Shown here: positions 23,943 to 40,335 of the stretch, piece by piece
Layout: each line of letters starts with the position of its first letter
How positions within the stretch are numbered: the stretch's first letter is position 1
From: Salibacter halophilus
GTDB lineage: Bacteria > Bacteroidota > Bacteroidia > Flavobacteriales_G > Salibacteraceae
Length of the DNA stretch: 64,000 nucleotides
Direction: 5' to 3'
Assembly: GCF_008806325.1 (NCBI RefSeq)
Contig: NZ_WACR01000012.1
Coordinates: 1 to 64,000 of the forward strand
Made by a program: the position numbers and the translations under genes
Notes under the pieces: model-generated
Database searches by the model: none
Told to the model about the DNA's origin: nothing
What the model saw: only the letters and a program-made list of their open reading frames with translations

Positions 23943-25210
23943 GTGAAGGCGAAGCGGTGAAGATTATTGCACCGGAAGACAAAAAATTAAAGGGCGAAAT
24001 TAAATTGCCGTTTTCTAAAAGTGTCTCCAACAGAGTTTTAATCATCAAGCTTTTGAGTGACAGCAACTGTGAGATCAAAAATATTTCTGAATCGCAGGAT
24101 ACAAAGTCATTGATTAGTGTTCTTGAAAAAATCAATCATGATGAGATCAATGCAGGTAGTGGCGGAACAACTTTCCGATTCATCATGGCATTGCTCAGCC
24201 TGTTACCGGGTAAACGAAAACTTACCTGTAGTGAGCAAATGAAAAATCGCCCTATTGAGGCCCTCGTGAGTGCTTTGCAGGATCTCGGTGCTGATATTTC
24301 TTATGCTGAAGAAACCGGAAAACCACCTCTCATTATTACTGGTAGAAACCTCATAGGAGGTTCTGTGGAGTTAGATGCTTCTATCAGTAGCCAGTACCTA
24401 TCAGCTTTGGCGATGATTGCTCCGTATTGTAAAAAAGGAATTGAAGTTACATTGAAGGGTGATATGGTTTCGCGACCCTATCTCGAAATGACTCTCCGCA
24501 TCATGAATAAGTTTGGTGCTGAGTATTCCTGGGAAGGAAATGTACTTTCAGTAAAACCCGGTGCTTATGAAATGCCAGACTCCTACGAGATTGAACCGGA
24601 CTGGAGTGCAGCCTCTTACTGGTACGAATTAGCAGCATTCAGTAATGAAGCACAAATCAAGCTTAAAGGTCTTAATAAGTCCAATCTTCAGGCCGATTGT
24701 GCAGTTTCCAGAATCTACAAAGGCTTTGGTGTTGATAGCTACTTCAGTGAAGACGGAGTAGAACTCGTGAAACTCGATGACTCGACAAGAATCAGTCACA
24801 AGCGACTCGAGCTTCTCCACAATCCAGATTTAGCTCAAACAGTAGCTGTTACAATTGCCGGACTAGGAAGCAGTGGAACGCTCCTGGGTTTAAAAACACT
24901 CAAAGTTAAAGAGACAGATCGCATTGAAGCCCTACGTATCGAACTTACAAGATTGGGTGCTGAAGTGGATGTAATTGACGATACTGAAATCATTGTCGAC
25001 CGAACAGAAAGCCTACCGGTAAGTGCTCACATCAACACTTATGGCGACCACAGAATGGCGATGTCATTTGCTCCTCTCGCACTCGTGATGGAGTCTGTAA
25101 CTATCGACAACCCTAAAGTTGTAGCTAAATCATACCCCAACTTTTGGAATGATTTGGAGAAAATGGGATTTAAAATTGAGATGGTTACTGAAGAGGTTAA
25201 ATCTTCTTGA
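23939..25210 (+). CDS. aroA: 3-phosphoshikimate 1-carboxyvinyltransferase (EPSP synthase)
   Basis: 423 residues from ATG 23939, which forms an ATGA overlap with the aroB stop; ATG 23927 is possible and adds four residues. Sixth step of the shikimate pathway. Motifs: KLPFSKSVSNRVLIIKLL (N-terminal substrate site), AGSGGTTFRFIMALLS, DASISSQYLSALAMIAP, KVKETDRIEALRIELTRLGA and YGDHRMAMSFAPLAL. The family's first domain is slightly shortened, as in other Bacteroidota. It converges with the next gene, overlapping it by 14 bp. Confidence 0.95.
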   Translation: MSEGEAVKIIAPEDKKLKGEIKLPFSKSVSNRVLIIKLLSDSNCEIKNISESQDTKSLISVLEKINHDEINAGSGGTTFRFIMALLSLLPGKRKLTCSEQMKNRPIEALVSALQDLGADISYAEETGKPPLIITGRNLIGGSVELDASISSQYLSALAMIAPYCKKGIEVTLKGDMVSRPYLEMTLRIMNKFGAEYSWEGNVLSVKPGAYEMPDSYEIEPDWSAASYWYELAAFSNEAQIKLKGLNKSNLQADCAVSRIYKGFGVDSYFSEDGVELVKLDDSTRISHKRLELLHNPDLAQTVAVTIAGLGSSGTLLGLKTLKVKETDRIEALRIELTRLGAEVDVIDDTEIIVDRTESLPVSAHINTYGDHRMAMSFAPLALVMESVTIDNPKVVAKSYPNFWNDLEKMGFKIEMVTEEVKSS

Positions 25211-25655: not shown

Positions 25656-25741
25656 ATTGCTAAATTAAGTATTTATGGAAATCGTGATGTATTGTACGTA
25701 AGCTTCCTTTTTAAGAGTTCAAAAACAGGAGTATAATAAAA

Positions 25742-25772
25742 TTGTATCTTGCAACTATATTTAGTTACTTTG
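25742..25772 (+). promoter_or_regulatory. Candidate hicA promoter
   Basis: TTG (25742-25744), a 20-bp spacer and TTACTTTG (25765-25772) resemble TTTG-N19-TAnnTTTG with one mismatch in the -7 box. The box ends 4 bp before the ATG, so the transcript would have almost no leader. Confidence 0.4.
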
Positions 25773-25776
25773 CGTT

Positions 25777-26016
25777 ATGAAAAAAGAGAAATTAAAAGCT
25801 CGTTTTTTCACTTTTCCAAAAGACTTCCACTACAAAGAAGTAGTGAAGCTATTAAAATACTATGAATATGAAGAAGTTAAAAAAGGGAAAACATCTGGAT
25901 CTCGAGTTTTATTTAAAAATAAACGAGGCGATAAAATATTACTCCACAAACCGCATCCTGATGGTATAATGAAAAAATACCAGCTAAAACAGATAGCAAA
26001 GAAATTAGAAGACTAA
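25777..26016 (+). CDS. hicA: HicA-family mRNA interferase toxin
   Basis: 79 residues. It has the double-stranded-RNA-binding-like HicA pattern: an N-terminal basic helix, VVKLLKYYEYEEVKKGKTSGSRVLF (the conserved G-S after the first strand), then a beta strand ending in the catalytic-His region ILLHKPHPDG, and a final helix KKYQLKQIAKKLE. HicA cleaves mRNA and is neutralised by HicB. It precedes hicB in the same direction, and a small hairpin (GGCTTT/AAAGCC near 26031-26050) lies in the 91-bp gap. Confidence 0.85.
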   Translation: MKKEKLKARFFTFPKDFHYKEVVKLLKYYEYEEVKKGKTSGSRVLFKNKRGDKILLHKPHPDGIMKKYQLKQIAKKLED

Positions 26017-26107
26017 TCAATTCTATTGAAGGCTTTCAAAATCAAAAGCCATAAAGATAGAGTTGAGTGAAATTAAAATTACTTGAAATACAAAACACAT
26101 TAAAACC

Positions 26108-26479
26108 ATGAAATATTTAAAGCATCGCGGTTATACTGGAAGTATAGAGTATAGTGTGGAGGATCAGTTGCTTTATGGTAAAGTACTGGGAATAAAAAGC
26201 TTGATTTCATATGAAGGAGAAACTGGCAAGGATTTAGAGCAGGACTTTAAAGATGCCATAGACACTTACCTTTCATATTGTAAAGAAGAAGGAGAAAAGC
26301 CTGAAAAGCCATTTAAGGGAAGTTTCAATGTGCGCCTTTCCTCCCATTTACATAGACAAGCTGCTTTATTAGCTATGGAAGCTCAAGAGTCATTGAACTC
26401 ATTTGTGGCTGAGTCGATTCGATACAGAATAGACCAAATAACTGGAAAGCAAAAACATAGTGATATTGCAGATGTGTAA
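26108..26479 (+). CDS. hicB: HicB-family antitoxin
   Basis: 123 residues. The N-terminal HicB fold (YTGSIEYSVEDQLLYGKVLG, then ISYEGETGKDLEQDFKDAIDTYL) is followed by a ribbon-helix-helix DNA-binding domain (FNVRLSSHLHRQAALLAMEAQESLNSFVAESIRYRI). It should bind HicA and repress the pair. The gap of 91 bp to hicA is wider than usual. The pair marks the left edge of the accessory island. Confidence 0.88.
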   Translation: MKYLKHRGYTGSIEYSVEDQLLYGKVLGIKSLISYEGETGKDLEQDFKDAIDTYLSYCKEEGEKPEKPFKGSFNVRLSSHLHRQAALLAMEAQESLNSFVAESIRYRIDQITGKQKHSDIADV

Positions 26480-26888
26480 CCCTTCTAGTGTGAATTCTTG
26501 AGTAAAAAAGTTAAAACTATTCTCTTATTTATGAATCAATAAGAAAACCTTAGAATAGACTACCTTAATCGTATGGTTGCCCTATTGGCCAAGTATAAGC
26601 TTAGTGTAGGATTTCGAAGCAATTCACACTCCGCATATCGCAAAGTTTCAAAGAAGCCGAATTACTCATTTTTAGCCGTTCAGCCCGCATTACGCTTATA
26701 CAATGTTGTGCAATCGTGCTTTCTTTTCTTTCGACCGTGCGTTGGCTCAGACACACTCTTTGACAAGCTTTGGTTGGCGCGTTGGCTTTGCGCGGCTTGG
26801 CAAACGCGGTTCATGAACACTTTTAAAAAGAAGCAAGCTGTGAGTAATTGTGTGGCTGTTGAGCGTTGGCATTTGTTGTCTGGTTTTT
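26480..26888. other. Structured non-coding stretch between HicAB and the Argonaute remnant
   Basis: No gene is supported in these about 400 bp. An imperfect inverted repeat is centred on GTATAAGC (26593-26600) and GCTTATAC (26694-26701); with flanks it matches at 12 of 16 positions. A second stem, CGCGTT (26778-26783) with AACGCG (26813-26818), lies in a G-rich run with repeated TTGGC. Base composition differs from the neighbouring genes. It could be a mobile-element or recombination-site relic; open frames across it have no coding character. Confidence 0.45.
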
Positions 26889-27082
26889 TTACATGTAAAA
26901 CGCATATGCTTCTTTTGGTGTGTCCTTTTCTCCAAGATATTTCATAATCTCTCCTACTTTTCGAGCACATCCAATGGTGATAGGATATTTATTGTCAAAT
27001 TGGGTATTGTTCCAGTTCATTTTTGTCAGACCGAGGATTTCTGTACAAATCGTTTTTATAGACGGTGGTATATTTAGTAGAA
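26889..27082 (-). pseudogene. C-terminal remnant of a prokaryotic Argonaute (PIWI domain end)
   Basis: Directly after the HerA stop, another frame on the same strand reads about 64 codons to TAA at 26889. It contains CTEILGLTKMNWNNTQFD followed by PITIGCARKVGEIMKYLG and ends EAYAFYM. This matches the end of the PIWI domain in long prokaryotic Argonautes, where a helix ending LTKMNWN is followed by LPxTxxxA.KVG and a hydrophobic C terminus that reaches toward the active site. The upstream about 90% of such a gene is absent; HerA occupies its place. I infer a deletion that left only the tail. It is recognised by motif memory, not by a search. Confidence 0.55.
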
Positions 27083-28843
27083 TTATTTTCCCTGCTTTCT
27101 CAAGTTTGTAATTGCCTGAATTAATCCTTGCTGTACCTTTTCCTTTGGTTTGCTCCATTCTTTCCAAAAATCCAATGTAGCACTGGACGGTTTGATACTA
27201 GGTTCATCAATATTTATTCTTGATGGCAGTAAAGAAGCATCACCGACAACTAATGCTTCTCCAATATCTAACACAGGAACTACATCAGTCAATCCTGAAA
27301 GATTATCAGGGAGTAGTCTTTTTATAACGGATTGATCGTCAATATTTGTTAATCGCAATGAAATAAAGTTATTGCATTGACTCAGGATTGTTCTATTCAC
27401 TTCTGAAGGTCTTTGGCTAATCACAACTAATCCAACTCCATATTTTCTTCCTTCCTTTGCTATTCGCTCAAAATTATTTAACCCAAGTTTTTCAACAGAG
27501 TCGGAAGTAATTCTTTCTGGAATATACAGATGAGCTTCATCACAAAATAGTGAAATAGGGTGTCTATTTTCTTTAGGAGTCCATTGTTGAACAGAAAAAA
27601 TAATTCTCCCTACCAAGCCAATTATGAGTGGGAGAATATCAGAAGGCACTTCTGAAAAGTCAATGACTTTAATGCCATTCCTTTGGTTGTTATCTTTTCC
27701 GAGCATTAGGGCAGAACAAAACTTTTCCATCCAGTCAAGCTGCATTTCGCTTTCTGTCACATCAAATAAAAAACCAAGTCGCTTATCCTGTTTTTTTGCT
27801 TCTAATCTTTGTATAAACCTTGTCAGCCTGCTTCTCATTGGGCCTGCCTTTGTTGTTCCAGCTTTAGCACCTGGCACCTCCTCATCTTCGTCATAATAAC
27901 GCAGTTTATTCAGTACTTCTTCGAGTTTATACGGAACTGGGCTGTCAATTGTGAAGGAAGCCAATAGTTCATCAGCATTTTTACTCTTTAAATATTTTTC
28001 TTTCTCTTCAGTGACAGTTTTAGAAAAAATCATTGCCTGATTAGGAGCATTATTATCGCTTCTATCTAGAAGCATGGCAAGCATTTCTTCATAGGTAAGA
28101 AGCCAGTATGGTAGCATTAGCACATTATTGTCTAATTTATTCTCCTTGGCAAGGTCGCCAGGGTTCGCCACACGGAAATGCTCAATGCCTTCCTTTTTAA
28201 ATTCATCTGTACTGTACTCACCGTGAATATCAAATAATAAGCCGTTTGCCATTGGTAAATCAGCAATCTGCTCTATTAGCTTTGCGACACACCAAGATTT
28301 TCCGGAACCTGTGCTTCCTACAATAACAGCATGACGTTGAAATAACTTATCTCCATCCAGATAGGCTTCTGCATCGTTGTCAATTGAGTACTTTCCAATG
28401 GAAAGCGATTTTTCTCCTTCTTCGCTCACTTTTGAGATAGTCCCCATGAATGAAGTTAGATTATTACCTTGCAATGGATAGCACTCCGCATCAATTTCTG
28501 GAACGGAATCTATGTTTCGCTGAAACACATCACGTTTCTCTCCTTTTTTGTCAAACAAAGTGCCGATCAAGGTTACCTTAATCAGATTTTCGGAAAGCTG
28601 AAAAAACACATCATCATGCGGAGTGGTATCATCCGTGTCCTTGTCATCAACTACTTTTCTTGTGATTTTGCTTATCAATCCAATCAAATGTTGTCCAGCT
28701 TTAGAACTTTGCAAGGCCACTAATTGATTGACTTGAAATTTCCTTAATTCGTTTAGGTTGTCAACCTTCACAATGACAGTACCGGTGTCAACGCTGAAAA
28801 CTTTACCTACCGAATTTGATTTATCGAAATCGAATATTGCCAT
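27083..28843 (-). CDS. herA: HerA-family ATPase of a SIR2-HerA defence pair
   Basis: 586 residues from ATG 28843 (MAIFDFDKSN), 5 bp after the SIR2 stop; an ATG at 28885 would overlap SIR2. An N-terminal HAS-barrel (GKVFSVDTGTVIVKVDN) precedes the RecA-like core: Walker A VGSTGSGKS (about 176-183), GLLFDIHGEYS, Walker B SLFCDEAHLYIPE and the sensor region VVISQRPSEVNRTILSQC. HerA forms hexameric rings. In the known SIR2-HerA antiphage system it assembles with a SIR2 NADase. It is the last intact gene of the island train. Confidence 0.9.
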   Translation of the reverse strand: MAIFDFDKSNSVGKVFSVDTGTVIVKVDNLNELRKFQVNQLVALQSSKAGQHLIGLISKITRKVVDDKDTDDTTPHDDVFFQLSENLIKVTLIGTLFDKKGEKRDVFQRNIDSVPEIDAECYPLQGNNLTSFMGTISKVSEEGEKSLSIGKYSIDNDAEAYLDGDKLFQRHAVIVGSTGSGKSWCVAKLIEQIADLPMANGLLFDIHGEYSTDEFKKEGIEHFRVANPGDLAKENKLDNNVLMLPYWLLTYEEMLAMLLDRSDNNAPNQAMIFSKTVTEEKEKYLKSKNADELLASFTIDSPVPYKLEEVLNKLRYYDEDEEVPGAKAGTTKAGPMRSRLTRFIQRLEAKKQDKRLGFLFDVTESEMQLDWMEKFCSALMLGKDNNQRNGIKVIDFSEVPSDILPLIIGLVGRIIFSVQQWTPKENRHPISLFCDEAHLYIPERITSDSVEKLGLNNFERIAKEGRKYGVGLVVISQRPSEVNRTILSQCNNFISLRLTNIDDQSVIKRLLPDNLSGLTDVVPVLDIGEALVVGDASLLPSRINIDEPSIKPSSATLDFWKEWSKPKEKVQQGLIQAITNLRKQGK

Positions 28844-28848
28844 ATTTG

Positions 28849-29880
28849 TTATTTTAGAATTGACATTAAACCGCTTACCGACCAAAAGTCTTCATTATCG
28901 TAAACTATTTCCTCCTCATGGTCGGATAGAAAAACACGAGTACCATTTTTACCATTATCTTCAATCAACGCATATTTTTGAATATCACTATTCAGTATTT
29001 CCCTCTTAGCTGCTTTTGAAATTTCTTTGGTTGCCAAAACCACGGGAATATTGTCATTCTTGGCTTTACTTAGCAACTTGGGATGAACATGCTCATCATT
29101 GAAACCATAGCCAATACATAAAAATGATGAGGCATTTGAAAAGTCCTTATCAATTTGGGTTAAAATTGACCGGAATGGGTCTTGTAGCGATTCCCTATAT
29201 TTTTCCGCACCGGGTGTAATAATGCATGGTGAATGATTATCAGCTATGTATTGTGAATGGGGGAAGCTCCTTACTACTCCTTCTCCATTTTTAAACCAAT
29301 CCAATGAACCGTGTATTTTCCAAATTTTAATCAAATATCCGTAATGGTCTAACTGTTTGTACTTCTGGTCGGCTGCCTCAGCAATATGATTGCCAACATA
29401 ATTATTAGTGAATCCTGTGTAAGCAAATCCGTTTGTATAGCTTGAAGCATATTCGGCCAATCGATCATAATTGGTTGTAATTACCCTCAACTCCCTTTGT
29501 GAAGTTCCAAAATGTTTGAGAAGGTTTATCAAGTGAAATTCTTGGGGATTTGATATAATCTTATCAAAGGCCTTTTTGTCTGCTTCATTCACGAAATTCC
29601 AGGTACATTTGATTACTCTTTTCAAAATCGCTTCGGTTACTCTTGTCTCCTGAAGGGCAGTTTCTAAATCGCCTGTCTTTTGCAATTTGTTTTTAAACTC
29701 ATTCCATACTTCATAATTATCCCTATCGTCTGAGTTAAAGTTGATCTCCGTTTCCAATTGCTCTGCTAATTGGCTCATTGTAGGTAATCCATATGGAACA
29801 GTAGCCCCACTACCAAGTACAATCAGCGGAACGCCTTCTACAAAACCTTGTATTCTCTTTAAAAATGTTTCTTTGTCCAT
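28849..29880 (-). CDS. SIR2-domain protein, NADase partner of HerA
   Basis: 343 residues. The SIR2-like NAD site appears as VPLIVLGSGATVPYGLP (residues 17-33), VITTNYDRLAEY (about 133-144) and the catalytic His at about 190 in KIWKIHGSLDWF; then FLCIGYGFNDEH in the second half. Stand-alone SIR2 proteins of this type degrade NAD+ on phage infection. With HerA next to it (5-bp gap), the pair matches the SIR2-HerA system. It follows the methyltransferase by 28 bp, so the two modules are probably co-transcribed. Confidence 0.9.
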   Translation of the reverse strand: MDKETFLKRIQGFVEGVPLIVLGSGATVPYGLPTMSQLAEQLETEINFNSDDRDNYEVWNEFKNKLQKTGDLETALQETRVTEAILKRVIKCTWNFVNEADKKAFDKIISNPQEFHLINLLKHFGTSQRELRVITTNYDRLAEYASSYTNGFAYTGFTNNYVGNHIAEAADQKYKQLDHYGYLIKIWKIHGSLDWFKNGEGVVRSFPHSQYIADNHSPCIITPGAEKYRESLQDPFRSILTQIDKDFSNASSFLCIGYGFNDEHVHPKLLSKAKNDNIPVVLATKEISKAAKREILNSDIQKYALIEDNGKNGTRVFLSDHEEEIVYDNEDFWSVSGLMSILK

Positions 29881-29908
29881 TGTCCAATTAAGGTTTGTAG
29901 TTAACTCA

Positions 29909-32900
29909 TCAGCTTTCCAATATCGGTTTCAAAATATCCGGGCTTTTCTTCTTAAACTGCGCCATGCGCTTCACCGCCTCATTCTCGGGATCACTCCAAG
30001 TAGCGTGAAGTTGCTCAATGACCTTTTCTTTTTCTGCATCATCCAGGCTGTCAAACTCCCGGCCATGCATGACTTTTTGCATATCCCGCTCTACAAATTC
30101 CAGCACATCAATCTCCCGCTCTTTCATGTGGTCGGAGAAGTAAAGATTGAGTACCACTGAATCTACTATAGCATTAATTAATGAATCTCTATTGAAGTGT
30201 AGAATTTTTGAGAGTAAAATGAGAACTGAATCTTCGTAAACATTCTTTATGGGGATCTTTCCTAACTGAGACACTCTTTGATAGGGAAAAAGGACATCAT
30301 CAAGAATGTAAACTTTGAAAAACCAGTAATTAATCAAAGAAGAATTTAACAGTGCGCATAACCCCCAATAATTCTCATGATTACCTGACTTCAAGTGACA
30401 GTTATATACAGTATTAAGACTTACTTTGTTCTTAAGGTCAATAGCTGTTGTCACTTTGTTTCCTACTCTTCTGATACACAGTTTTGGACTTTTGTAAAGT
30501 TCTTTAGTTTTAAATTTAGATGTATTTGAGAAATCGGCATCAATCCAGAGGTTCGTATCTTGTATTTTAAATTGAGATAAGTCTTCTCCTCGCAGTAGCT
30601 CATGCCCTTGGCCATTCGAGTTAATTGTTTTGTCTTTTTTTCCTGATTCAACTCCCCTGAATATTTCTATAATTGTTTCAAGGTTTACGGAATTTCTTTG
30701 GATATTATCAATTATTTCGTACTCATCAGGGTATATTAAAGTATTGAAAATTTTGAAAGGTAGTTTATTGAAATTCTCGGAAGCTACCTTAAACAAGTGT
30801 TTAAACCCTCTCGTGAAATTAAAATGCTCAATTCTTGTTTTCTTTGTATTTGGATTTGTGATAAATATGCAGGATTCAACTCCTGCATTTTCAAAAATAT
30901 TTGAGCCAGTAACAAGTGTTTGAACACCACAATCATTGATTAACCTTCTTAAAACTTCATAGTTCTCATTATTTATTATTGGCTTTGGAACAATTAATGA
31001 AAGTATCTTACTATGTTCTAGAGATAACTCAATAAACAGACTAAATAAATCAAATTGTCCAGTTGCTGAATTGTAACGCTCCTTATAATATTTCTTAAAA
31101 GCTGATTGAATTCCACTTTTAGTATTAATATATGGCGGATTACCAATCACCACATCAAACGCTTTTACATCAAACATCCATTCCGGGTCAAAGAAAGTGG
31201 AAGAGGCGTTTTGATCATAGGGATCCCATGCAGCCAATTTTTCTGCAGTATCATTGGGCCATCCGCTTTGTTTTAACTCATCAGCAATGGCACTGCGCAA
31301 TTCTTCGTCCTTTTCGCGATATTTAAGTTTGGTATCCTTAGTTCGTGCGCTAAAGAGTTTGTGACGCACTTTTTTAAGCTGGCTTTCCAATTTCTTAATT
31401 TCCCCACCATCGAAGATATTCAGCTGGTCTTTGGGTTTATCAATTCCTATGAGCGTATTGGCAGCCACAAACTTGGTTTCGAGGTTGGGCAGGGCACGAA
31501 TGCCGAAGTTAGGCTTATCATTATTTTTACGCTGATCCACCACCAGGGAGATGAAAAAGCGCAATTTGGAAATCTGGGTGGCAATGGGCTGAATATCAAC
31601 CCCGTATATACAGTTTTCAATCAGGTAAAGCTTCCGGGCATAATCGGGATCGTTAATACTCCGGTCAAAAGCCTCATCTATTTCACGCAAGCGCTCACTT
31701 CGTTCTTCTTTATCTTCTATTTCGAATGCATCATCAGCCGCTTGTTTGGCCTTGTTTTTCTGCACTTCTTTCCAAATGATATTCTCCGGGTCAAGCTTTT
31801 GGAGCATGTGCACCATTTTCTGCAAAATGCCCATGGGAAATGCACCGGAACCACAGGCCGGGTCTAAAATTTTGCATTCATCTATGGCTTTTACAATTTG
31901 TTTAGTGAGCTTTTCATCTTCGGCAAACGGGTTTCCGGGATCAAAAGAACTTAGTTGATGTAATTTTTGATCCAGTTCCTCATCACCAAGGTTCCAATCT
32001 TTTATTGCATTTTTCAGGTAAGCGATCAGGCTCTCGTCCACCATGTAATTCACAATTTCCCTAGGAGTGTAGAAAGAGCCGGTTTGCTTGCGGGCTGTTG
32101 TTTTGGTTTCAGGGTTGTAACTGGCCAGTAGATTTTCAAAGACTTTCCCCAGTAATTCAGGGTCAAGCGCCACATCTTCTTCTACGGGGGTATTTTCAGT
32201 AACAGTAAACTTATAGGAATGGAGAATATTGATGAGCCCTTTTACCGCTGCTTGTTTTGTCCCTTTATTTTTCACTCCGTATTCCGGGCTCAAATCCACA
32301 TGTTCCGTTGCCCCGAAAAAGAGATAGTCCGGTACAATGAGTTGCTCCTTGTATCCTTTTAGGTTATCTGAAAATCCATCTAATAATATTTTATTTTCTT
32401 TATCATCAAGACACTCAAATAAGCCACCATTTAAGAATGGGACGCTTTTATTCATGAGATCAAGAAACGCTTCTGAATCTTTAAAATATTCTTCATATCT
32501 CATCAGATAATCTATACCTTGATGTTTTCCTCTGGCTTCCTTTCCTGATTTTGTAGTAAGCTCTCGAAACCCTCTTGTTCGCCTATCCGTTTCATCCGCT
32601 TCTATGGGACAGTTGAGCGAAGCAAAAAACAGGTTTTGCAAAATAGCCTTGTAGTAAACGCTTTCTTTATTGGCATCTTTGAACATGCCGTTTTCATGGT
32701 AGGGAGAAATTTCATTGAGGATATCTTTTTGCAGTGCATCCAGGTCAAAAAGTTCGTCAGGAACCAGTTTCTTTTCTTTGATGAACCAGGTAAACAACAA
32801 TCGTGTGAGCAAGCGAATGACATTGGTGGCATTGTGCTCTTTAATGAGGTCATCCAGGTTGGCTTCTTTTCGATGAGCATCTTCTATGGTTGGCTCTGAG

Positions 32901-33595
32901 GGAAACTTAACATGATTAATAGCCCAGAAGTACCAATTGGAAAGTTCCTGATAAAACTTCTTGTTTAAGATGCTGACATTAAATACTTCCTGCCAGTAAT
33001 TGTAGAGTTTGGCAAAAGAATCCACCGCATTTCTACCGGTGAGGGGAATTTGAAGTTCTGCAATAATGCGTTCATGACCGGCATGGGGCTTTTGAATATC
33101 AATATCCCGAAGCAGGGAAACCTTACCCGCTTTTTCGCCTTCGCGCCATTCCTGTTTGTATTTCAACCGCTCCGTATTGGCAAAAGCCAAATAATTTTTT
33201 TGGTCGTCTTTGTATTTAAAAACCAATACCACAGGGGTATAGTAAAACTCCCGGTTGAACGCGCGGGAAATTTCTGCCAGTTGGGAACGAGTAGGCAACA
33301 GATTGTTTGGTCGCGGGTGTAGGGTAATTCCGAATATCAGGATACCGTCATAGTCGGATTTGATTTTCTCCGTTTCCAGTGATTGATTGCCTTCAAAAGC
33401 CGCATCGTCCACCATACCCACGAAATAGACATCATCAACAAGTCGGAAAGTTTCGTTTTCCTTGTAGGTATCCTTGAGAATTTCTTTTGCAGTGGTAGGC
33501 TCATCAGCCACATAATTCATGGGCACATTCAGTTCTTTGAAGAGCGCCTTGATGGCCGGAAGAAAATTGATGTCTTTAAAATGCGTTAGTTTCAT
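29909..33595 (-). CDS. Eco57I-type N6-adenine DNA methyltransferase with specificity domain
   Basis: 1228 residues. An N-terminal region (1-480) of unknown fold is followed by QTGSFYTPREIVNYMVDESL (about 505-525), the SAM motif ILDPACGSGAFPMG (about 576-589) and the catalytic NPPY in VVIGNPPYIN (about 819-822). The C-terminal about 350 residues resemble TaqI/Eco57I target-recognition domains. It should methylate adenine in a specific sequence to mark self DNA. I see no PD-(D/E)xK nuclease motif in the N terminus; cutting may come from the PLD-helicase. Its ATG overlaps the KilA-N stop by 4 bp (ATGA). Confidence 0.9.
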   Translation of the reverse strand: MKLTHFKDINFLPAIKALFKELNVPMNYVADEPTTAKEILKDTYKENETFRLVDDVYFVGMVDDAAFEGNQSLETEKIKSDYDGILIFGITLHPRPNNLLPTRSQLAEISRAFNREFYYTPVVLVFKYKDDQKNYLAFANTERLKYKQEWREGEKAGKVSLLRDIDIQKPHAGHERIIAELQIPLTGRNAVDSFAKLYNYWQEVFNVSILNKKFYQELSNWYFWAINHVKFPSEPTIEDAHRKEANLDDLIKEHNATNVIRLLTRLLFTWFIKEKKLVPDELFDLDALQKDILNEISPYHENGMFKDANKESVYYKAILQNLFFASLNCPIEADETDRRTRGFRELTTKSGKEARGKHQGIDYLMRYEEYFKDSEAFLDLMNKSVPFLNGGLFECLDDKENKILLDGFSDNLKGYKEQLIVPDYLFFGATEHVDLSPEYGVKNKGTKQAAVKGLINILHSYKFTVTENTPVEEDVALDPELLGKVFENLLASYNPETKTTARKQTGSFYTPREIVNYMVDESLIAYLKNAIKDWNLGDEELDQKLHQLSSFDPGNPFAEDEKLTKQIVKAIDECKILDPACGSGAFPMGILQKMVHMLQKLDPENIIWKEVQKNKAKQAADDAFEIEDKEERSERLREIDEAFDRSINDPDYARKLYLIENCIYGVDIQPIATQISKLRFFISLVVDQRKNNDKPNFGIRALPNLETKFVAANTLIGIDKPKDQLNIFDGGEIKKLESQLKKVRHKLFSARTKDTKLKYREKDEELRSAIADELKQSGWPNDTAEKLAAWDPYDQNASSTFFDPEWMFDVKAFDVVIGNPPYINTKSGIQSAFKKYYKERYNSATGQFDLFSLFIELSLEHSKILSLIVPKPIINNENYEVLRRLINDCGVQTLVTGSNIFENAGVESCIFITNPNTKKTRIEHFNFTRGFKHLFKVASENFNKLPFKIFNTLIYPDEYEIIDNIQRNSVNLETIIEIFRGVESGKKDKTINSNGQGHELLRGEDLSQFKIQDTNLWIDADFSNTSKFKTKELYKSPKLCIRRVGNKVTTAIDLKNKVSLNTVYNCHLKSGNHENYWGLCALLNSSLINYWFFKVYILDDVLFPYQRVSQLGKIPIKNVYEDSVLILLSKILHFNRDSLINAIVDSVVLNLYFSDHMKEREIDVLEFVERDMQKVMHGREFDSLDDAEKEKVIEQLHATWSDPENEAVKRMAQFKKKSPDILKPILES

Positions 33596-34419
33596 TTATC
33601 CAGCTTTTTCAAATTCGAATTATTGATTAGTGATGTCATTTGTGTGATGGCGATCTCGTTGAGTTGCTCCAATCGTTCTGATTGTGAATGCCCCTGCCGG
33701 ATCAATACCGCATTGATACTTTCCAGGTTTGAGAGTACAACCAGTTGTTCAAGAGTAGCATCATCCCGTATATTGCCTTTTGCTTCGGGGTTTTCATTTC
33801 TCCATTCGGCTGCGGTTTTTCCGAAAAGTGCCATATTGAGCATGTCAGCCTCCGTTGCATATACAAAAGATATTTGTTTTTTATTGAGCCTTTCCGGAAT
33901 CAGTTTTTCCTTGATGGCATCGGTATGAATGGAGTAATTGACTTTGGCAAGCGTGCGTTGCAGGTTCCAGTCGAGTTTTTGACGATTGCTTTCTACCTCT
34001 TTTAGGCGTTGGAACTCCTTTATAACATAAAGCTTGAACTCGATGGAGATCCAGGAAGCAAACTCAAAAGCAATGTCTTTATGAGCGTACGTACCGCCAT
34101 ATCGGCCGGATTTAGAAATGAGACCGATGGCGTTTGTTGTTTCAATCCAGCGTTTTGGAGTGAGGACAAAACTATTGAGCCCGGCTTGTTTTTTAAACCC
34201 CTCGAATTCGAGGGGTTTAAAATCAGGGTTGTTGAGTTTCTCCCAAAAGCCAAGTAATTCGATGGTATTTCTATTCCTGAGCCAGTTTTGGATGATGGCA
34301 TTCATGTTGGCAGAGTCCTTATATCGTGCAATATCAGTCAGTGATATAAAGTCGTCCTTTTTACCTTTGAAAAAGGTGATTTCCGTTCCTTGTACTTCTA
34401 TTTTCTTGTTTTTTGCCAT
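33592..34419 (-). CDS. KilA-N domain protein
   Basis: 275 residues. The KilA-N DNA-binding domain covers about 8-145: FISLTDIARYKD, IIQNWLRNRNTIELLGFWEKLNNP, WIETTNAIGLISKSGRYGGTYAHKDIAFEFASW and FKLYVIKEFQRLKE. The C-terminal half is helical and unknown. KilA-N proteins come from phages and large DNA viruses and are often found in restriction loci. It lies between helicase (30-bp gap) and methyltransferase (overlap). Codons for KPLEFEGFK form part of a perfect 32-bp palindrome, and a second palindrome sits just before the start, so self-regulation is possible. Confidence 0.88.
   Translation of the reverse strand: MAKNKKIEVQGTEITFFKGKKDDFISLTDIARYKDSANMNAIIQNWLRNRNTIELLGFWEKLNNPDFKPLEFEGFKKQAGLNSFVLTPKRWIETTNAIGLISKSGRYGGTYAHKDIAFEFASWISIEFKLYVIKEFQRLKEVESNRQKLDWNLQRTLAKVNYSIHTDAIKEKLIPERLNKKQISFVYATEADMLNMALFGKTAAEWRNENPEAKGNIRDDATLEQLVVLSNLESINAVLIRQGHSQSERLEQLNEIAITQMTSLINNSNLKKLDK
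34191..34222. repeat. Perfect 32-bp palindrome inside the KilA-N gene
   Basis: The left half reads TTTTAAACCCCTCGAA and the right half is its exact reverse complement, with no loop and GAATTC at the centre. On the minus strand the reading frame runs straight through it. A perfect palindrome of this length is not expected by chance in 64 kb. Confidence 0.9.
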
Positions 34420-34432
34420 TGTTTCTCTATTG

Positions 34433-34446
34433 TGGCGAATTCGCCA
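34433..34446. promoter_or_regulatory. 14-bp palindrome between helicase and KilA-N genes
   Basis: TGGCGAATTCGCCA is a perfect palindrome, also centred on GAATTC, lying 14 bp upstream of the KilA-N ATG and 4 bp after the helicase stop. It could be an operator or a small hairpin affecting translation of KilA-N. Confidence 0.5.
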
Positions 34447-34449
34447 TAT

Positions 34450-37400
34450 TTAAACGGAGACCAAAAACCAGGTTATTAAATCAAAATTTTCTAATCTATA
34501 TTTCTCGTCCACTTTCACGTTTTGTTTCACCCGTTCTACCGCAGATTTCTCGCCCTTTCTCAGTTTAGCCAGCACATCTTTAGCTTCTTTGCCCATGGTC
34601 TTTTTAGTGCTGCCATCTTCTTGTTCAGCTACCTCTGCAGCTTGACTGTCTAAATAGGCTTTCAGTGATTTAACCAATCTTTGAATTTCATTCTCATTTC
34701 CTTTATCAATTGCATCGGGTACATATCGTTCCCTATCCTTGTGATAAGTGATCGCATCCAGGACCTCCTTTTGATTAAGCAGAACCAATTGTCCATTATT
34801 ATTGATATAGATCAGGTCAAAAACCTTGTATTCATGCGTTTTAGCCTTCTGAGGTCTGTTTGGATAACCTAACAGGGCGATGATACCGTCTTCGGGACAA
34901 ATTGCAGCATCCGCTTTGAAACCGGAATAAACGCCCTTTGGCATGTGTTGGTATTTGGCTTTGTCCTTGTTAAACTCTTCCATTAAATCCTGACGATAAC
35001 GTTCCAGTGACAAGTCATCAAAACCCAATCCCTGATCACTCACTTCAATGTCTTCCCAGGAAGTTTGCATTTGCTTCATCATTCTCTCTTTGAGACGACT
35101 CTCAAGGTTTTCGTCTTCAGCCATTTCTTTGAAGGTTTCAGAAAAATCCAACTGGACTTCTGATCCAGCTAATTTCATAGCTGCCATGCGTTGTTCTATT
35201 CTGCCCTGTAAATCGAGGTAACTATTAATGTTGTTCGAAGGCCAGAAATTGATTCCAAATATTTTTTCATTCGGTGAGCCCAGCCGGTCAATACGTCCCA
35301 TTCGCTGAATAATCCGAACAGGATTCCAGTGAATATCGTAATTGATAACCATGTCGGCATCCTGTAAATTTTGTCCTTCACTCAGCGTATCCGTGGCAAT
35401 CAGAATGTCGATAGGGCTTTGAAGTTTCACATACGTTTTAGGATGGTTCTCTTTCACCCAGGCGATCCAATTTTGATATGCTGCCCAGTCGCCCTTTTTG
35501 ATGTCGAAATCCCATTCTTTTTCTTTAAACAGTTTGGTGTAGGGAGCGAAGCGTTCCAGAATGGGTTCAAAGAGTTTGCTTTCCTCATCCGTATCAGAAG
35601 CCAAAGAGCCGGAACCTGAAACCATGGCTAACTTGTCATAGCCTCTGGATTTTAATTGCTTAAACAAGTATTCAGCGGTATCCCGGTAAACAGTGAATAT
35701 GACTACTTTTTGATTGTTGGCATTATGGCTTGATTGTCTTTTCTGTTCAATCTGTTTGATCAATACTTCCAGTTTATGATCAGCGGAATTGTGGTTTGTG
35801 GGTTGTATGGTTTCTTTTTTGATTCGCTCCTCAAACTTCAAAAGATTTAAGTATAGGCTATCCAGTGATTCCAAATCCTTTTTGAGGTCATCTTTAAAGT
35901 ATTCCAGATTTCCAGCAGCATCAATATCTGATAATTTCACCTTTCTTTTCTTCCCCAGGGAATACTCTTCATATTCCGCTTCCAGTTCGTCATCTTCAAA
36001 CAAGTCCTTGCGATCTTCTTTTAACGTATCGTTTTTCTTTTCTTGCTGAAATGCCTTTATCCAGTCTAATGCATTTTGATGGTGATCTTTGATTTTGCCG
36101 ATTGTTGAAAAGAAAGAATTCCATGATGACTCCAATCTTTTAACCATTAATATATACAGCATCTTGACTAGAAAGAACTCCCTTTGTCTTTCATCATGAA
36201 GAACATCACTCTCAATTTTTTCTATATAAGCAGAAGGTTGATAACCTGAAAGCTTGGGAGGGAAGTGGTCGAATAACTCTTCAAAAGATTCGAACTTCCC
36301 AAGTTCATTGGGTGTAACAAATAAATTTTTTGGCCTTCCCTTTTTTGGAAACGTTAGTGCAGACTCTTGTCCCTCGATCATCTTTCTTGTCCGTGAAACG
36401 GTCAATGTATCTGTAAGCGTAAAGAAGTTGGCCGGAAGTTTTTTAATGAACTCCGATATTTTCGGTTCCGGTTCATTTCTCCATTCATTAAATGCTTTCT
36501 GCGCTGTTCTAAATGAATAGTCAAGGTTTCTCACTCCTAAAGACTCCTCATAACCATGAGTATTTCCCTGAACCATCAATTTGAACTGATTCCTGATGTC
36601 GTTCAAAGAGTTGTTAATTGGTGTAGCCGACAAAAGCAATACTTTAATGTCTTCATTTGGCTGGAGAACATGCTCCATTAAAAACTTGTAACGATTGGAT
36701 TTATCATTCCTTAGGTTGTGGCTTTCATCAATAACAACCAATTTAGGTTTGTCATTGGTGAAATATTTATCTGCACGGTCAGTGTATTTTTCAAGTCTTT
36801 GATCAATTAAATCCGTGTGAAAACGGATTGAGTAATCTAATTGATCTTTTTCAAATCTTGATTCATGTTTTCTTTGATATCGTCTCCAGTTATGTTCCAG
36901 TTTCTTGGGGCATAATAGAAGTATCTCACGGCCTTGTAGTTGGAAAAATTTCATTACCGCAAGTGCGCTCCATGTTTTACCTAGCCCTACTGCGTCTGCA
37001 AGGATTGCTCCATTGTATTTTTGGAGCATACGAATTAAGCTAAGAGCCCCTTTTTTCTGAAAATCATAAAGTGTGTTATAAACCACTGAATTTTCAAGTC
37101 GCCCTACTTGTCGGTTGAATTCAGGATCATTTTCCTCTTCAAGTATTTGATTTCCGAATAGTTCAAAAAGTATTTTATAGTAAATATCCCTTGGTGAATA
37201 CTTGATAAATATTCTCTCAATTTCATTGATAAGGTACTCCTTGAAATCAACTTTGGTTTTAGTCCCATCTTTATGCACTATGGTTTTCTGCTTATGAGCC
37301 TGGGGTCTTTTCCAAAGTGTTTCAAACCATTCTACCAGTTCTTTGTATTGGTTATTATTTCCTGTTTCGGCAATGTTTAATTCCACATTGCTAGTCTGCT

Positions 37401-37830
37401 TTAGTCCAATTCCGGCCTCAGTAAGATTGGAGCTACCCGAAATGAAGTATTTGTTTCTATCATCGTTTTTCGCTGGGTTAAAGAGGTAGTTTTTAGCATG
37501 GCAAAAATTTGGCTCAAGTGTTTTGGCTGATACTTTATCTTGTTTTAAAAATTTCACACATTCCTTAGAAACACTTTTGAGTTTTAAAGCTGCTTCAATA
37601 GTTATGTTTTCGTTTAGAAGGTCAAGAGGCCGGTTTTCCTCAAAGTCAATATTCACAATATCTCCAAGGACTAACCTATATTGTTCAACTTTATTATTTA
37701 CAGTTTTGGAGAGGTATGCCAAAGCTCCAATAGTAAAGTATCCAGTTACAATATCAAGTTTACCTTCTTCGGTATACTTGCTTATCCACTCATGGACTTT
37801 CAGATTTTCGTTTTCGTTATCTAATATCAT
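34450..37830 (-). CDS. SNF2-type helicase with N-terminal PLD nuclease domain
   Basis: 1126 residues. Residues 1-170 are a phospholipase D-like nuclease domain with H111 and K113 in CHAKNYLF and GSSN at 132-135 (one HKD half, so dimerisation is expected). The helicase core follows: Walker A DAVGLGKTWSAL (about 279-290), DESH (about 368-371), LLSATPINNS, and in the second RecA lobe IATDTLSEGQNLQ and QRMGRIDRLGSP. The end is a helical region. Such enzymes act in restriction systems; DrmD of class 1 DISARM is a SNF2 protein paired with a methylase, but drmA, drmB and drmC are not here. It starts on the stop codon of the XRE gene (TAATG). Confidence 0.88.
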   Translation of the reverse strand: MILDNENENLKVHEWISKYTEEGKLDIVTGYFTIGALAYLSKTVNNKVEQYRLVLGDIVNIDFEENRPLDLLNENITIEAALKLKSVSKECVKFLKQDKVSAKTLEPNFCHAKNYLFNPAKNDDRNKYFISGSSNLTEAGIGLKQTSNVELNIAETGNNNQYKELVEWFETLWKRPQAHKQKTIVHKDGTKTKVDFKEYLINEIERIFIKYSPRDIYYKILFELFGNQILEEENDPEFNRQVGRLENSVVYNTLYDFQKKGALSLIRMLQKYNGAILADAVGLGKTWSALAVMKFFQLQGREILLLCPKKLEHNWRRYQRKHESRFEKDQLDYSIRFHTDLIDQRLEKYTDRADKYFTNDKPKLVVIDESHNLRNDKSNRYKFLMEHVLQPNEDIKVLLLSATPINNSLNDIRNQFKLMVQGNTHGYEESLGVRNLDYSFRTAQKAFNEWRNEPEPKISEFIKKLPANFFTLTDTLTVSRTRKMIEGQESALTFPKKGRPKNLFVTPNELGKFESFEELFDHFPPKLSGYQPSAYIEKIESDVLHDERQREFFLVKMLYILMVKRLESSWNSFFSTIGKIKDHHQNALDWIKAFQQEKKNDTLKEDRKDLFEDDELEAEYEEYSLGKKRKVKLSDIDAAGNLEYFKDDLKKDLESLDSLYLNLLKFEERIKKETIQPTNHNSADHKLEVLIKQIEQKRQSSHNANNQKVVIFTVYRDTAEYLFKQLKSRGYDKLAMVSGSGSLASDTDEESKLFEPILERFAPYTKLFKEKEWDFDIKKGDWAAYQNWIAWVKENHPKTYVKLQSPIDILIATDTLSEGQNLQDADMVINYDIHWNPVRIIQRMGRIDRLGSPNEKIFGINFWPSNNINSYLDLQGRIEQRMAAMKLAGSEVQLDFSETFKEMAEDENLESRLKERMMKQMQTSWEDIEVSDQGLGFDDLSLERYRQDLMEEFNKDKAKYQHMPKGVYSGFKADAAICPEDGIIALLGYPNRPQKAKTHEYKVFDLIYINNNGQLVLLNQKEVLDAITYHKDRERYVPDAIDKGNENEIQRLVKSLKAYLDSQAAEVAEQEDGSTKKTMGKEAKDVLAKLRKGEKSAVERVKQNVKVDEKYRLENFDLITWFLVSV

Positions 37831-38027
37831 TAGTTACTGTCTTCAGCCTTAATCAATTCCTTAGGATTTACCCCCAATATTTTTGCTATTTCAAAAAGCA
37901 CTTCCAACCGGGGTTGTTGTCTGTTTTGAACATACCCATTAACCATGTTGTAGCTCTTTCCAAGCTGTTCAGCCAACCATTTTTGCTTAATTCCTTTTAC
38001 CTCAAGAACTTCTTTTATTCTGTTCAT
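37830..38027 (-). CDS. Small XRE-family regulator heading the defence gene train
   Basis: 65 residues, nearly all a Cro/CI helix-turn-helix: IKEVLEVKGIKQKWLAEQLG, then SYNMVNGYVQNRQQPRLEVLFEIA. Its stop codon overlaps the helicase ATG by one base, so it is the first gene of the train. Small XRE proteins in this place control restriction and defence operons and often delay the nuclease until methylation is complete; that role is inferred. Confidence 0.88.
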   Translation of the reverse strand: MNRIKEVLEVKGIKQKWLAEQLGKSYNMVNGYVQNRQQPRLEVLFEIAKILGVNPKELIKAEDSN

Positions 38028-38047
38028 GTCTTCAATAAGTCAAGCAC

Positions 38048-38077
38048 CTAATGTACGTTTAATATCTCGTTTTTCAA
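38048..38077 (-). promoter_or_regulatory. Candidate promoter of the defence gene train
   Basis: On the minus strand TTG (plus 38075-38077), a 19-bp spacer and TACATTAG (plus 38048-38055) fit TTTG-N19-TAnnTTTG with one mismatch in the -7 box. The box ends 20 bp before the XRE start. The rest of 38078-38238 has no gene; it contains GCGCGTTGG (near 38186), a short stretch also present in the non-coding region at 26778. Confidence 0.4.
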
Positions 38078-38238
38078 TACAAAAAGCGTTCGAATAATTC
38101 TCAGTCTGTCCGAGATATAGTTAAAAGAACAGGCTCTTTTGGTTTTTCAGCGATGGCTTGTATGTAGGCAAAAACCAAATGTGCCTATTTGCGCGTTGGT
38201 CTTTTCAGCATGTTGCCCAAATCAACTTTAAAAGAATC

Positions 38239-40335
38239 TTAAAAACGAATTCTCATTTGTAAGCGCAGCTCTGTCTTGTGAGGCTGGTCGATTTGATTTA
38301 ACCCTGCACTAATCTCATCAACATTACTGTAATAAGACTGCCCAAGCTTCGCCCAAACATCGAGGTAGCGAGTTGGTTCAAATTTCAACATTCCGTACCA
38401 CCTGAATCCGCGATCAAAAAATGCCGGAATGCTAAAATAGTAGAGCACATCATTTTCGTAAGCATAAACGCGAGCGTTGTAACCCGTTACATCAAAGAGC
38501 GCCATTCTGCCCCAAAAAGACCATTTCGATTTGTTGGGATTGTACTTCACATCCTGAAAAAGTAAAAAACCGGTTGCCGGATCTTCATCCCCGTTTTGAT
38601 AAAAAGTGTACTCAACACGGTTTCCCAAACTCAGGTTCTTAGAAACACTGTAATCAATATCGTACCTGAAATTATGCCTAACCTGATCGACAGGCACATT
38701 CACCGGACGTTCAGTCATTGTGGCGTTTCGCCTATCGCTTTCAGTTCTGTAGCGGACATACATTTCCACATAGCTACTGGGAGCGTAATCGAGTTGTGCG
38801 AGGTAATCTGCCCCAATTGAAGGAGCGTCAACTCTAAAGCTCATCCAGTCGTGTCGGTAGAAATCAGCGTAACCAGTGAAGTTCAACCTCGGTGCAACTT
38901 TGAAGCGCCCTCCAACATAAGTTCCTCTTTCATTTTGGTTGTTGCTCGACTCACCAAATGCCCTCGCATAAACCGAATGATAATCTTTTTGATAGTTGCG
39001 ATTGATAACAACCATTTCGAGTCGTGGGTCGAGTTCAATTTGAGCTCCGCTAATGTATGCCCAACCTCCATTTCGCGAAACTGCCGCCTCTCCAAAGAAG
39101 TTGACCTTCCCTACAATCCAGTTTAAGTCAGCACTGGCATTGTATGTTTCAGCATCGTTTAAATCGAATTTGTTGTAAAGTCTCAAGTTACGGTTGAATG
39201 ATCCATCGTAATTGTAATGAACTCCGGTTACCCCAAAATGGAAGTTATTTTTCTCGTAAGACACGTTTCCTCCCATGATCTGTTCATTCACTGCAGATTT
39301 ATCGGCCATTTCACCCGGTGTTCTATGATAACCACTGGCCTGAAGAGAAGAGAAAACAATTTCATCAGAAGTGGCAGTATCATTTCCTTCACGGTTGGCG
39401 TCAACATTTTTGTTGCTGTAAAAAACAGTTGTTGAAATGGAATTTGACAATTCGATAGTTGCAGCCGCCCCACGCAAAAACAAGTTTTCATTAGCACTTG
39501 TGTAAGCTCTTAACTTTTGCCCATACCGTATTGCATTTAAAGCATTTGGTGTTTTACCAAATGAAAAGCCACTCCACAAAGCCAAACCCTGACCAAATTG
39601 TGCGTGATAATCTCCCAGCGCTAATTGCTTCACCGGACCAATATTCCTGGCAAAAACATGAGCCGAATAAAAATCAAAACCCTCTTTATTGTTTCCTGAA
39701 AAGAATTCTTCTCCTGCATCTTTATCACCAGTAAAACCAAAAGAAAGCTGGTTGGTAAACTGGTACCGGTAGCGCATATAAAGTCTTTCGGGAGAGCCGA
39801 GGTATCTGCGGTTTGGACTTTCTTCGAGTACCGAATCTGCTATTGGGCTAAATCCTTCCTGTTCCTCTAGTACACTGCTGTAACGCAAAAAGATATCGTG
39901 TCCACCGTATTTAAAAGCTCGTTTTAGATCGAAGCTCTTGTCATCTTTCACAGGGCTTGTGGTCACGAAAGGTAAAATTTGATTGATCGTATTCAGATCC
40001 AAACTCTCCACTTCACGCAATTCGTAAATGGTTTTCATTTCCCCAAATTGTGCAACATATGTAAGGATACCGGCAATTTGAAACGGTGAGAGTAAATTGA
40101 GTCTTTCAAGTTCTTCCCTATCTGTATTGTTGAGGTTAATCGGGAAGTCATAGTAGTAGCTCAAGTCATCGGTTAAAGTAGTGAAGTCAATGTTTTCGCT
40201 CTCGGCCTCCTCTGCTAAAAACTCGATGCGTTGCTGGATGACGGAATTTTTGATTTCCTCCCGGTTCTGACCGAAAAGAAAAGTTGAAAACGTGCAGGAT
40301 AACAGCACCAGAATATGTTTCAACTCAAAACGCAT
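38239..40335 (-). CDS. Outer-membrane beta-barrel protein with N-terminal helix-hairpin-helix domain
   Basis: 698 residues. A signal peptide (1-22, ending FGQ) is followed by a ComEA-like helix-hairpin-helix region (about 55-135: PINLNNTDREELERLNLL, then YELREVESLDLNTINQIL) and about 550 residues of amphipathic strands rich in aromatics, ending in LQMRIRF, a barrel-type final strand. Helix-hairpin-helix motifs usually bind DNA; here the domain would lie in the periplasm. The role is unknown, although the type is conserved in Bacteroidota. An exact motif copy (40263-40272) lies in the signal-peptide codons. It overlaps the upstream gene by 11 bp. Confidence 0.8.
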   Translation of the reverse strand: MRFELKHILVLLSCTFSTFLFGQNREEIKNSVIQQRIEFLAEEAESENIDFTTLTDDLSYYYDFPINLNNTDREELERLNLLSPFQIAGILTYVAQFGEMKTIYELREVESLDLNTINQILPFVTTSPVKDDKSFDLKRAFKYGGHDIFLRYSSVLEEQEGFSPIADSVLEESPNRRYLGSPERLYMRYRYQFTNQLSFGFTGDKDAGEEFFSGNNKEGFDFYSAHVFARNIGPVKQLALGDYHAQFGQGLALWSGFSFGKTPNALNAIRYGQKLRAYTSANENLFLRGAAATIELSNSISTTVFYSNKNVDANREGNDTATSDEIVFSSLQASGYHRTPGEMADKSAVNEQIMGGNVSYEKNNFHFGVTGVHYNYDGSFNRNLRLYNKFDLNDAETYNASADLNWIVGKVNFFGEAAVSRNGGWAYISGAQIELDPRLEMVVINRNYQKDYHSVYARAFGESSNNQNERGTYVGGRFKVAPRLNFTGYADFYRHDWMSFRVDAPSIGADYLAQLDYAPSSYVEMYVRYRTESDRRNATMTERPVNVPVDQVRHNFRYDIDYSVSKNLSLGNRVEYTFYQNGDEDPATGFLLFQDVKYNPNKSKWSFWGRMALFDVTGYNARVYAYENDVLYYFSIPAFFDRGFRWYGMLKFEPTRYLDVWAKLGQSYYSNVDEISAGLNQIDQPHKTELRLQMRIRF

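Follow-up and report, generated by a model that had tools for sequence, protein, structure and literature searches.

The 64,000-nucleotide stretch of Salibacter halophilus DNA analysed here (the window) carries the end of a prokaryotic Argonaute (pAgo) gene directly behind a complete SIR2-HerA gene pair, and this piece is very probably what remains, after deletion or module exchange, of a short pAgo gene belonging to the clade partnered by DUF4062-APAZ proteins. The locus comprises the following features, all on the minus strand.

26889 to 27080, minus strand: pseudogene consisting of the C-terminal end of a short pAgo gene, with clear homology over 26892-27062 and a profile match as far as 27077
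27063 to 27082, minus strand: junction zone, from the HerA stop codon (27083-27085) to the start of clear pAgo homology (nucleotide homology limit 27062)
27083 to 28885, minus strand: HerA helicase, complete (PADLOC HerA PDLC04105, profile positions 1-573 of 576)
28849 to 29880, minus strand: SIR2 defence protein, partner of HerA (PADLOC SIR2 PDLC04087, E=6e-116, positions 1-341 of 343)
29909 to 33595, minus strand: Eco57I/PglX-like N6-adenine methyltransferase (type IIG-like), by homology searches
33592 to 34419, minus strand: KilA-N domain protein (PADLOC PDC-S22), by homology searches
34450 to 37830, minus strand: PLD/HKD-Snf2 helicase, by homology searches
37830 to 38027, minus strand: small XRE-type helix-turn-helix (HTH) protein, encoded by the operon's first gene and recognised by reading its sequence

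The stump occupies a minus-strand frame (the initial annotation gave no strand) of 63 codons (26892-27080, LLNIPPSIKTICTEILGLTKMNWNNTQFDNKYPITIGCARKVGEIMKYLGEKDTPKEAYAFYM) closed by TAA at 26889-26891, in which the motifs LTKMNWNN, PITI and RKVGEIM picked out by the initial annotation are all present and which carries the C-terminal signature of short-pAgo-type PIWI domains (LTKMNWN...PITI...R.VGEIMKY...YM). Its 63 residues match the PADLOC profile pAgo_I (Class I, PDLC02376) with E=4.2e-26 over profile positions 399-455 of 455, including the last position, and their best match in the PDB is 9jsb, the short pAgo of a DREN-APAZ complex (E=2.7e-11); the top 10 PDB matches, of 471-541 aa, are all labelled as pAgo, Argonaute or Piwi-domain proteins. 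Identity to intact relatives, found in Bacteroidota MAGs and isolates, reaches 93%. From these matches we identify the last ~57 of the 63 residues (26892-27062) as the C-terminus of a prokaryotic Argonaute, in line with the earlier reading of a pAgo tail directly behind SIR2-HerA. The PIWI profile search proposed as a check on that reading gave a divided answer: the tail had no match in Pfam, PIWI included, or in NCBIfam, but because an intact 477-aa relative likewise had no match in Pfam, the Pfam negative is uninformative and the test invalid for this clade, whereas the PADLOC pAgo_I profile did match. A 92-aa ORF starting at TTG 27167 was rejected as a real gene, being a mechanical listing that overlaps the end of HerA in another frame.

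Judged by its relatives, the source of the tail is a short pAgo (MID-PIWI, ~475 aa) of the clade partnered by DUF4062-APAZ. The closest relatives (L025-L045), where complete, are short pAgos of ~475 aa, each preceded by a 460-465-aa DUF4062 protein; DUF4062 forms the N-terminal part of this partner (Pfam E=3e-25 for the L018 protein) and the rest has APAZ-type similarity to PADLOC Aga profiles and PDB APAZ chains, while more distant pAgo relatives have SMEK-domain partners. The initial annotation had instead proposed a long Argonaute. The PIWI end is common to short and long pAgos, and some profiles of 1030 and 1121 residues do match the tail, but they score 40 and 17 bits against 90 bits for the nearest profile, a 455-aa MID-PIWI; moreover, every close intact relative is ~475 aa long and has its APAZ encoded by a separate gene, the named longer Argonautes in the PDB match only at E~1, and neither an N/PAZ-MID-PIWI architecture nor a tail nearer to long than to short pAgos was found, making a long-pAgo origin extremely improbable.

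Compared to SPARDA-like short pAgos (PADLOC pAgo_I; 9jsb, DREN-APAZ/pAgo; 9qbl and 9qbp, DUF4365-APAZ/pAgo), the tail aligns gap-free at the C-terminal end and an intact relative can be aligned almost from end to end (9qbp, E=1e-79), whereas the window keeps a remnant of ~12% without MID domain or APAZ partner, and the partner of the intact relatives has DUF4062 where SPARDA-like systems have a nuclease domain. DUF4062 is presented as a TIR-like NADase family in a 2026 preprint (PMC13174449), which is silent on APAZ; among the papers searched it alone named both DUF4062 and Argonaute, and none of them joined DUF4062 with APAZ. We regard DUF4062-APAZ/short pAgo as a candidate, little-described NAD-depleting pAgo type. 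Members of this clade occur at L018:11187-12575, L020, L025-L045, L055 and L056.

Nucleotide homology with intact pAgo genes begins at ~27062, which is an upper limit, and runs to the stop codon, or a few bases past it in close relatives. A profile-style search of the whole genome with a full-length relative recovered residues 416-477 of 477 only, in a match that extends to 27077. The remaining ~420 pAgo codons, with the MID domain and the body of PIWI, are absent from the genome by this search, and no Argonaute sequence lies upstream, as the initial annotation had stated; by sequence comparison the remnant thus corresponds to about the last 12%, or one eighth, of a short pAgo gene. The DUF4062-APAZ partner gave no match in the same genome (a weak negative, the query having no positive control), and the window contains no relics of AAA or APAZ genes. 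HerA is complete, with relatives aligning to residue 598 or 600 of its 600 residues; its listed start is TTG 28885, although ATG 28843, directly after the SIR2 stop codon, is the likelier one. Because HerA is complete and pAgo homology ends at 27062, the join must lie within the ~20 bp of 27063-27082. In the related SIR2-HerA locus L105, the sequence behind HerA is unrelated to pAgo.

Since the genome is a draft of 32 contigs, we considered whether two contigs had been joined falsely at the end of HerA. However, a misjoined intact gene would leave its other piece somewhere, and both that piece and the partner are absent from a genome that is 99.97% complete; the genes flanking the locus on both sides are also the neighbours expected from relatives, so that an assembly artefact is highly unlikely. 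The loci L159, L160 and L163, which represent three further genera of this family, have aroB, aroA and the gene at 38239 side by side, with the gene at 25197 sitting between these neighbours in L160. Because the flanking genes are adjacent there, the ~12.6 kb from 25656 to 38238 is an insertion relative to these three genomes, an inserted defence island that includes hicA and hicB on the plus strand beyond the minus-strand operon. In two further genomes the same interval is filled by other genes, apparently non-defence from their translations.

By family membership, the living system at this locus would be the helicase/KilA-N/methyltransferase/SIR2/HerA operon, which reads on the minus strand in the order small HTH, PLD/HKD-Snf2 helicase, KilA-N, methyltransferase, SIR2, HerA and pAgo stump. 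The SIR2 and HerA genes lie next to each other and are each full length by PADLOC profiles, in which they resemble the Sir2-HerA anti-phage system (Tang et al. 2023 Mol Cell, as cited in PMC12205087), and the predicted mode of action is SIR2 NADase activity with HerA, as expected for Sir2-HerA. In contrast to that system, the pair here ends a helicase/KilA-N/methyltransferase operon with a pAgo stump behind it, and it falls short of the curated NCBIfam equivalog cut-offs. The proximity of a SIR2 gene to a fragment of a short pAgo also recalls SPARSA (SIR2-APAZ/short pAgo), but this SIR2 pairs with HerA: the 343-aa protein contains SIR2_2 alone in Pfam, no APAZ domain was found in it, and its top PADLOC matches are SIR2-HerA-type SIR2 proteins, with Aga_SIR2 reaching just 6e-18, over the SIR2 part. 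A SPARSA remnant was ruled out on these grounds and because the pAgo piece comes from the DUF4062-APAZ clade. Stretches like the small HTH gene also lie upstream of the APAZ-pAgo genes in L020; window positions 37921-38027 were rejected as a boundary repeat common to L020, as they are coding and belong to this gene.

We then used an alignment of the tail to search 84,980 species genomes and analysed the best 80 of 483 confirmed loci, using a full-length pAgo as a ruler of completeness. The gene is whole (start at residue 15 or earlier) in 71 of these 80 loci, one of which, L034, is frameshifted; six start near a contig end, where completeness is not judgeable, and three are stumps with ample sequence upstream, namely L041 (residues 376-477), L027 (residues 322-477) and L075 (residues 261-477, directly behind an ORF resembling a transposase). 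A separate scan yielded a fourth, L022 in genome G408, which retains residues ~425-476 in a broken frame directly behind a resolvase-like gene. At L041:9647-10171, methyltransferase residues 1-70 are followed after a gap of ~10 bp by pAgo residues 376-477, so that this locus amounts to a helicase-methyltransferase-pAgo-type operon with an internal deletion. The break points differ among stumps (residues 261, 322, 376, ~420 and ~425), and we therefore rejected the idea that the 3' end of pAgo holds a preferred site of breakage or integration. A SIR2 or HerA of the window's type was found in none of the best 80 pAgo loci (fetched flanks of up to 10 kb), and a pAgo was found at none of seven HerA loci, of which two were examined by tblastn and five by both annotation and tblastn; these loci lend no support to SIR2-HerA plus an Argonaute as a functional combination. 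The stump reveals no new combination of a long Argonaute with SIR2-HerA. Searches of the family and order gave no homologue of the tail or of HerA, and scans of viral contigs with HerA and with a repeat word gave no match.

The arrangement would have arisen in one single deletion or replacement event, in which the SIR2-HerA pair, or an operon ending in that pair, became joined to pAgo codon ~420, either by deletion or by a recombination in which one effector module took the place of another; this would have cost the locus the DUF4062-APAZ partner gene and roughly the first 420 pAgo codons. The event itself is not observed, because no locus with the pre-deletion arrangement was found. The absence of the remainder supports the initial suggestion that an Argonaute was once here and has since been lost; as to whether it was a member of this operon or its neighbour, both histories fit.

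One history, to which we give somewhat less than an even chance, has the pAgo ending an ancestral operon of helicase, methyltransferase, AAA ATPase, DUF4062-APAZ and pAgo, with SIR2-HerA later replacing the effector module. Related helicase and methyltransferase genes precede DUF4062-APAZ and pAgo in L028, L031, L033, L034, L036, L055 and L058, and this core is also present at the stump locus L041; because 8 of the best 80 loci in total carry a related core before pAgo, replacement of an effector module within the operon is plausible. The window's methyltransferase is similar at the nucleotide level to that of the Parabacteroides loci L055 and L058, L116 and L120, which are related to the window's core, have an AAA ATPase gene besides helicase and methyltransferase, and in L022 a second helicase-methyltransferase locus has a pAgo stump at its end. 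However, the window's lack of AAA and APAZ relics counts against this history, its helicase and methyltransferase differ in lineage from those of L028, L031, L033 and L036 (26-28% identity), and L025 and L026, to which the tail is most closely related, are APAZ-pAgo pairs that stand alone. These same two relatives, which have the EKDTPKE motif in common with the tail, favour instead a separate, adjacent DUF4062-APAZ/pAgo pair, over which the helicase-methyltransferase-SIR2-HerA operon was inserted or to whose tail it was fused by deletion, a course of events that we rate just short of even odds. Consistent with it, the company of SIR2-HerA varies among loci, from type III-like restriction-modification (L105, L126) to MmeI-type (L122) and SbcCD-like genes (L124), and at L125 the pair has no recognised neighbouring defence genes. 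Nothing specific stands against an adjacent pair: stump and operon run in the same direction and are joined within 20 bp of the operon's last stop codon, which suits both histories. These data are equally compatible with replacement inside the operon and with a pair that stood alone next to it. In L032 and L039, from their translations, DUF4062-APAZ and pAgo are apparently nested in type I restriction-modification operons. It is possible, though rather doubtful, that Bacteroidota helicase-methyltransferase operons have an interchangeable last slot, occupied by AAA, DUF4062-APAZ and short pAgo or by SIR2-HerA, and that the window is a fossil of an exchange between these candidate NAD-depleting modules.

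Over 57 codons, the tail differs from L025 and L026 by 28-29 synonymous and 5-6 non-synonymous differences, and because the differences are mostly synonymous, nearly all of this divergence arose under selection. Together with the still open frame, this suggests that the truncation is probably recent relative to divergence from these relatives, a suggestion tempered by the fact that most of the synonymous divergence predates the event. The open frame and well-conserved sequence could also indicate that the tail works as a small protein or is translated as an extension of the SIR2-HerA system, for which we see only a very slim chance: there is no suitable start codon behind HerA, the listed TTG lies within HerA in a different frame, HerA in L105 is not followed by any such tail, and the conservation is accounted for by recent descent from a functional gene. 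To our knowledge, no role has been described for a PIWI end that stands alone, with neither MID nor an APAZ partner. The stump is almost certainly non-functional, since MID, most of PIWI, the partner and any plausible start codon are missing, function being very unlikely as a consequence.

The locus is a record, at base-pair scale, of a lost Argonaute effector, with the SIR2-HerA pair now ending where a pAgo once continued, and a well-supported fossil of defence-module turnover at a spot where defence genes are exchanged. Together with L022, L027, L041 and L075, it shows that short pAgo genes decay by truncation at differing break points, and it points to a little-described variant in which DUF4062-APAZ and short pAgo lie inside helicase-methyltransferase operons.

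Two short non-coding elements lie beyond the stump. The first (26587-26735, ~130-150 bp), which has inverted ends and is present in one copy in this genome, also occurs behind the pAgo-AAA operon of L056, where the ends read GTATAAGCG...CGCTTATAC, and on the Riemerella plasmid pRCAD0416RA-1, flanked there by a RelE-type toxin gene and lnu(I); it is like an integron attC site in outline only. The second (26748-26803) recurs in L105, in the stretch that immediately follows HerA, and in L056, where it follows the AAA gene. Rfam and tRNA scans gave no match, and when folding of these elements (26587-26803) was compared with shuffled sequences, the window copy folded no better (z +1.2) and the L056 copy better (z -3.05). 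Another junction at a HerA end was observed at L106:10073-13783, where the HerA of a different SIR2-HerA pair is cut at about residue 550 and continues in frame into RHS-repeat-like sequence, giving a merged frame of 1236 aa.
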